A stretch of DNA of 64,000 nucleotides, from positions 1 through 64,000 of the forward strand of contig JAHIZV010000169.1 of NCBI GenBank assembly GCA_018814445.1. The letters are read 5' to 3'. The position numbers and the translations under genes were made by a program. The notes beneath the pieces were generated by a model, which was not told where the DNA came from, did no database searches, and saw nothing but the letters and a program-made list of their open reading frames with translations. The stretch is from Verrucomicrobiota bacterium (GTDB lineage Bacteria > Verrucomicrobiota > Kiritimatiellia > JAHIZV01). This document shows, piece after piece, positions 1-25,139 of the stretch (within the stretch, counting starts at the first letter, position 1; each line of letters starts with the position of its first letter).

Positions 1-142
1 CTGACTTAAGGCCACGACATGCCTTACGGCATTGACTACAAACAATGCGAACTTCATCAATTGTTCGTAGTTAAGCCCGTCAGGGCTGTGCCTTTCTTTG
101 CCTGGCGCATCCGAAAGTGGTCTTAAGTCAGCGGCATTCAGG
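1..142 (+). repeat. MITE-like dispersed element, copy 1 (left flank cut by window edge)
   Basis: CTGACTTAAGGCCAC...GTGGTCTTAAGTCAG terminal inverted repeats; nearly identical (one substitution seen) to 19789-19930. Confidence 0.85.
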
Positions 143-19728: not shown

Positions 19729-19779
19729 CGTTTTCTCCGTTTACCTGTATGTCATTCATGGAGATCAGGCTTCCTGATC

Positions 19780-19928
19780 TGAATGGCGCTGACTTAAGGC
19801 CACGACATGCCTTACGGCATTGACTACAAACAATGCGAACTTCATCAATTGTTCGTAGTTAAGCCCGTCAGGGCTGTGCCTTTCTTTGCCTGACGCATCC
19901 GAAAGTGGTCTTAAGTCAGCGGCATTCA
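19780..19928 (+). repeat. MITE-like dispersed element, copy 2
   Basis: TGAATGGCGCTGACTTAAGGCCAC ... GTGGTCTTAAGTCAGCGGCATTCA, about 24-bp terminal inverted repeats. Confidence 0.9.
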
Positions 19929-20009
19929 GGCCTGATCTGCCGTTCATAATACTGAGAGTCACGGATGAGCGGTCAGGTTCCCGAAAAAACAAAAACATTT
20001 CGAGATGAT

Positions 20010-24870: not shown

Positions 24871-24884
24871 TAAACATCTCCTCC

Positions 24885-25031
24885 GAATGTCACTGACTCA
24901 AGGCCCCTTCGGATGCAATAGGCAAACAAAGGCACAGCCCTGACGGACTTGACTGCAAACAATGGATGAAGCCTGCACCGTTTGTAGTCAATGCCGTAAG
25001 GCATGTCGTGGCTTTAAGTCAGCACTATTCA
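24885..25031 (-). repeat. MITE-like dispersed element, copy 3 (inverted, diverged)
   Basis: Reverse complement aligns end-to-end with copies 1 and 2 (GACATGCCTTACGGCATTGACTACAAAC..., GTCAGGGCTGTGCCTTT). Confidence 0.85.
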
Positions 25032-25139
25032 CATATCCTTCGGCTGATTCGCGCATCCGCAAATACTTATGCACCTGATCACACCTTCTTGACAATCAAT
25101 TATTATGCACATATGTTCATAATAAATCAGGGCCGCGTC

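Follow-up and report, generated by a model that had tools for sequence, protein, structure and literature searches.

The repeat present three times in the window (the whole stretch of 64,000 nucleotides that was analysed) is a real, mobile element, and the mechanism of its mobility is largely known. It is very probably a MITE of the IS4 subgroup that relies on an IS4-type transposase acting in trans and carries a REPIN as cargo. An IS4-type DDE transposase, supplied in trans, would bind the 23-bp inverted repeats and insert the element at an 11-bp staggered target cut. The interior would be a REPIN, made of two GTAG-tagged REP hairpins in inverted orientation with a palindromic spacer between them, of a REP family associated with RAYT genes in related genomes; IS4 ends and REPIN would spread as one unit, and the multi-arm fold would be the sum of the nested inverted repeats of the two systems. 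In the open literature that was searched, we found no previous description of an IS4 MITE with a REPIN inside it.

The three copies described in the earlier note were found again, with terminal inverted repeats and three internal hairpins matching that description, and their exact limits are given in Table 1. Copy 1 lacks the first 8 bases of the element because base 1 of the window is also base 1 of its contig (C83). Copy 2 is intergenic, the ATG of a trxA-like gene being located 53 bp downstream. Copy 3 precedes the ATG of a cydA-like gene by 15 bp. Positions 24874-24884, where copy 3 was inserted, contain what is likely the ribosome-binding site of this gene; the site was restored by the target duplication, which left the copy at its present distance from the ATG.

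Table 1. Positions of the element copies and their parts in the window, followed by related loci in the source genome (G000) and in other genomes.
Feature	Position or locus	Strand	Remarks
Element copy 1	1..139	+	element positions 9-147 of 147
Copy 1 REP unit GTAGTCAATGCCGTAAGGCATGT	17..39	-	read on minus strand
Copy 1 second REP unit GTAGTTAAGCCCGTCAGGGCTGT	67..89	+	
Copy 1 right terminal inverted repeat GAATGCCGCTGACTTAAGACCAC	117..139	-	
Copy 2 left target-site duplication CTTCCTGATCT	19770..19780	.	8/11 match to right duplication
Element copy 2	19781..19927	+	complete, 147 bp
Copy 2 left terminal inverted repeat	19781..19803	+	IS4-subgroup type
Copy 2 left REP unit of REPIN core	19805..19827	-	
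Copy 2 right REP unit of REPIN core	19855..19877	+	
Copy 2 right spacer	19878..19904	+	weak CTTTC...GAAAG arm
Copy 2 right terminal inverted repeat	19905..19927	-	IS4-subgroup type
Copy 2 right target-site duplication AGGCCTGATCT	19928..19938	.	
Copy 3 target-site duplication ACATCTCCTCC	24874..24884	.	9/11 match
Element copy 3	24885..25030	-	146 bp, 84% identical, old and diverged
Copy 3 second REP unit	24934..24956	-	tag decayed to GCAG
Copy 3 REP unit GTAGTCAATGCCGTAAGGCATGT	24984..25006	+	
Copy 3 other target-site duplication ACATATCCTTC	25031..25041	.	
Extra-arm variant, G000	C130:1-181 (L035), C4 (L062), C73 (L130), C211 (L133), C110/C221 (L053, L054)		
REP core in shell GGGGCTGTATCA	G061 L106, G327 L143		
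REP core in shell CTAGCAGCCYGT	G331 L095, L110		
REP core in shell GGTTGCGCTGAAAAAGTC	G179 L076		
REP core in shell GTTGCGGAAAG	G336 L074, G337 L080		

The source genome is a draft assembly of 4.06 Mb in 250 contigs, 95% complete. A search of this genome recovered the 147-bp unit, GAATG...CATTC, at about 40 places, well beyond the three copies first noticed, and this copy number indicates that the unit is not a product of chance. By BLAST, 30 places cover at least 127 of 149 bases, and at least 33 are near full length when covariance-model matches are included. Additional fragments were found at contig ends, many contigs ending inside the element. Identity to copy 2 is 91-99% for most copies (84% for copy 3), and the left end splits the copies into two sub-groups, GAATGG..AAGGCCAC or GAATGC..AAGACCAC. 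According to simple ORF calls, most complete copies sit between ORFs. Its length of 147 bp, its 23-bp repeats and the lack of any gene inside place the element within the limits used for MITEs (70-300 bp, non-coding, repeats of 15-30 bp), as do its multiple near-identical, dispersed copies with target duplications. A variant that carries an additional arm (CCCGCTTAGCGGG and similar sequences), either inserted after the left REP or taking the place of part of this REP, was observed at several loci.

Target-site duplications provided signs of mobility. In 20 complete copies, identity between the two flanks averaged 0.718 at 11 bp against 0.36 in a control with randomly paired flanks, and 7 of the 20 carry exact 11-bp duplications; other duplication lengths (7-10 and 12-14 bp) gave no comparable signal in the same copies. 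The proposal of a non-autonomous mobile element was thus borne out by these duplications together with ends of the IS4-subgroup type. IS4-subgroup elements have ends of the form -AATR--------WTW and target duplications of 10-13 bp (PMC2266710). The terminal repeats GAATGSCGCTGACTTAAGRCCAC fit this signature, GAATGGCGCTGACTTA agreeing with it at positions 2-5 and 14-16, and the 11-bp duplication falls within the published range.

The same ends were found on full-length elements in related genomes. The end motif GAATGSCRCTNACTTAAG, with one mismatch allowed, was detected in 104 of 346 genomes of the same class, where a reversed control motif gave scattered matches only. In four genomes (G010, G093, G314 and G088) it bounds elements of 1.5-1.9 kb, which were detected via the IS4 N-terminal domain. 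The proteins of G314 and G093 score 197 and 192 bits against NCBIfam IS4_1, contain DDE_Tnp_1 with a weak, sub-threshold Nterm_IS4, and carry the Y(2)R(3)E(6)K (YREK) motif; DDE transposases with this motif were found at L161, L162 and L203 in other Kiritimatiellia genomes. Exact 11-bp duplications flank three full-length IS4 copies (L159, L161, L166). Taken with these relatives, which share its ends, the duplications of the element indirectly show what would be an 11-bp staggered insertion of the IS4 type.

IS4-ended MITEs with other interiors occur in five genomes (G008, G047, G048, G027, G003); that of G008 has the same ends as our element and an exact 11-bp duplication, but its core differs. 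The interiors of L176 (G048), L175 (G047) and L081 (G008) are long palindromes of other sequence, with several TTGA/TCAA-looped hairpins in L176, and interiors rich in hairpins may thus be widespread in this group of MITEs. At L081 1640-1680 a second IS4-type end (GAATGGCACCAATTAAG) directly follows the target duplication of the first MITE.

No transposase for the element ends is present in the window, as the earlier note had stated, and a search of the source assembly, a draft that is 95% complete, likewise found no IS4-subgroup transposase with matching ends. Autonomous elements with such ends were found in other Kiritimatiellia genomes and not in the source assembly. Three PF01609 genes of this assembly (C32, C69, C88) were considered as the partner and rejected, since they have no matching ends. 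A partner in the same genome is not a defining feature of a MITE; the IS4 transposase probably is, or recently was, present in the organism and missing from the draft genome.

When the core is read outward, both of its halves are palindromes with a GTAG tag: GTAG-TCA-ATGCC-GTAA-GGCAT-GT and GTAG-TTA-AGCCC-GTCA-GGGCT-GT. The core thus consists of two imperfect GTAG-tagged palindromes in inverted orientation, the arrangement of a REPIN. The family pattern, GTAG-TNA-stem-GTNA-stem-GT, is also present outside the MITE, in the source genome as well as in other Kiritimatiellia genera. In 117 REP contexts chosen by tag and loop sequence alone, 98.3% of the stem pairs are kept, against 29-62% when the stem is slid, and the first three stem positions show alternative pairs (A-T/G-C, C-G/G-C, C-G/G-C). 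A search with a covariance model of the element yielded relatives in 14 further Kiritimatiellia genomes, nearly all through the REPIN core; the match in G008 is the IS4-ended MITE with another core mentioned above. A 28-base match in G026 corresponds to the REP hairpin only. In the source genome, REPINs of the family are also present outside the MITE shell, among them tandem arrays at contig ends that repeat every 94 bp (C166:1-413 and C206:42-296; L136, L137).

The association of this REP family with RAYT genes was found in related genomes. In G327 (Kiritimatiellia MAG JASLPY01, Arabian11_MAG_70), two REPINs flank the gene of a 197-aa Y1-type protein, which scores 21.7 bits against PF01797, just below the cut-off of 23. 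Homologues at 46-52% identity are encoded in G079, G320 and G174; REPs occur around the first two, and none were found around that of G174. The link between REP family and RAYT gene thus holds in G327, G079 and G320 and not in the source genome, where no close homologue of the REP-linked RAYT was found (best 27%). The source genome does contain ten Y1-type transposase genes of several lineages (L111-L120); no REPs of the MITE's family were found beside them, except for a whole MITE copy near L112, a gene that ends about 120 bp from this copy.

G327 contains composites that have diverged but share the ends and the order of the core (L072, L086, L092, L096, and also L146), L072 showing a target duplication of 10/11. 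A diverged relative of the composite exists in another family, and the association of IS4 ends with a REPIN is older than the source genome. The exact left-junction pattern was not found in other species among the GTDB representatives. The same REP core was also found within other shells with unrelated ends, with total lengths of 119-138 bp (Table 1), and these ends may resemble those of IS1182 type; the core usually lies close to one shell repeat, at a distance of a few bases, and some 16-32 bases away from the opposite one. The near REP has A(C/T)GCC in the IS4 shell and AGCCC in the GGGGCTGTATCA and CTAGCAGCCYGT shells, a difference which suggests that nesting occurred more than once. At a further locus of G331 (L090), a REP core was observed inside a shell with unrelated inverted repeats. 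We would tentatively consider, at somewhat below even chances, that REPIN cores are recurrent MITE cargo in Kiritimatiellia, one module being common to two unrelated mobility systems. If so, either RAYTs insert REPINs into MITE hairpins, or REPIN-bearing MITEs spread better.

The fold of the element is strong compared with shuffled sequences (z = -8.6 and -7.1 as RNA for the two strands, -6.6 as DNA), which could be taken for the mark of a dispersed structured RNA with a cellular role, such as that of a 5' leader, whose mobility would be secondary; copies 2 and 3 do lie just upstream of genes. However, a fold that is strong on both strands is expected from a nest of inverted repeats, and transposon ends outside with inverted GTAG-tagged REPs inside explain the multiple arms. 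The earlier note had reported stem changes that keep pairing, a fair description of copy 3. Across 21 copies of the source genome such changes do not exceed the shuffled controls (3 cells with pair-preserving double changes against 3.4; 94.1% of cells paired against 93.8%), so that the covariation check showed no excess and the note's proposal of a multi-arm fold selected at the RNA or ssDNA level is unsupported. Comparison of these copies with the G327 composites did reveal covariation (22 cells against 11.8 in shuffles, 0/500), mostly in the outer stem, formed by the two ends that have to fit one transposase; this excess is therefore uninformative on an RNA. Nor did we find an Rfam match for the element (a tRNA being the sole match in the window) or promoter-like or terminator-like sites within the elements. 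An intergenic location is in any case typical of MITEs and REPs, and the existence of recent, nearly identical copies flanked by target duplications shows that transposition has occurred. Within the source genome, no part of the element varies less than the REP hairpins: 0.5-1.9% of their stem cells differ, against 7.5% in the outer repeats and 5.4% in the right spacer, and 5 of 28 columns vary, against 28 of 63 in the remaining interior (p=0.018, as an indication only because the copies are related). This could also be expected of an RNA, but the conservation includes the loops, indicating that sequence is conserved and not pairing alone, and together with the family-wide pairing of REPs it points to recognition of the REPs rather than to an RNA product. 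The hairpins probably owe their conservation to continued recognition by a REP-binding factor, and we regard a cellular RNA as very unlikely.

Transfer of the whole unit by a Y1 enzyme (RAYT or TIRYT) through a single-stranded intermediate, the outer repeats being part of the hairpin, is unlikely too, though a little less so. The core is a REPIN, Y1 genes are present, one of them close to a copy, and RAYT-type genes flanked by TIRs have been described (PMC3733652). However, ends of the same type also flank IS4 transposases and MITEs without a REPIN, and REPs of the family exist in the source genome without an IS4-type shell. Exact target duplications, moreover, are not expected from IS200/IS605-like chemistry. 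These shell-less REPs also contradict the idea that the element is an ordinary internal-deletion derivative of an IS4 element with a REP-like middle arisen by chance. MITEs are usually regarded as derivatives of ISs (PMC10969869), but the core matches a class-wide REP family in its tag, its 4-base loop and its paired inverted arrangement, and this family is found beside RAYT genes and without IS4 ends; we consider this origin extremely improbable.

An IS4-subgroup MITE carrying a REPIN shares features with several known systems. With the IS4 subgroup and its derived MITEs (PMC2266710) it shares the end signature and the 11-bp duplication, and its full-length relatives in the class carry YREK-motif DDE transposases, but it is itself only 147 bp long and non-coding, with an interior that is not IS4 sequence. 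As in REPINs and GTAG REPs with their RAYTs (PMC3116915, PMC2817692, PMC3733652), there are two inverted GTAG-tagged palindromes with a pairing spacer, an intergenic location, tandem arrays and, in a relative, a RAYT gene between REPINs; in contrast to them, the REPIN lies here within DDE transposon ends and has spread with 11-bp target duplications in a genome where the cognate RAYT was not found. TIRtrons, TIRYT-associated repeats and the compound TIRs of P. putida and P. fluorescens, with a decayed GTAG-1 plus other stem-loops (PMC3733652), likewise mix REP-type hairpins with other inverted repeats. In those systems, however, the repeats flank Y1 genes, whereas here the outer repeats are IS4 ends that enclose no Y1 gene and, in relatives, flank IS4 transposases. 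The bacterial MITEs ERIC, NEMIS and QMITE2 (PMC3733652, PMC10969869) are similar in size, inverted ends, strong fold, intergenic location and high copy number, but none is described as enclosing a REPIN in the literature examined.

The composite offers REPs a means of spreading in the absence of a cognate RAYT. Bacterial REPs and MITEs are commonly viewed as distinct kinds of repeats with separate enzymes; here one element joins both and has spread to about 40 places. Since conservation within the unit is highest in the REP hairpins, the question of what keeps REPs under selection becomes testable. A multi-arm fold in a repeat, moreover, does not necessarily imply a functional RNA. Viral contigs gave no match to the MITE or its core, and the bare end motif was present in eight of them.
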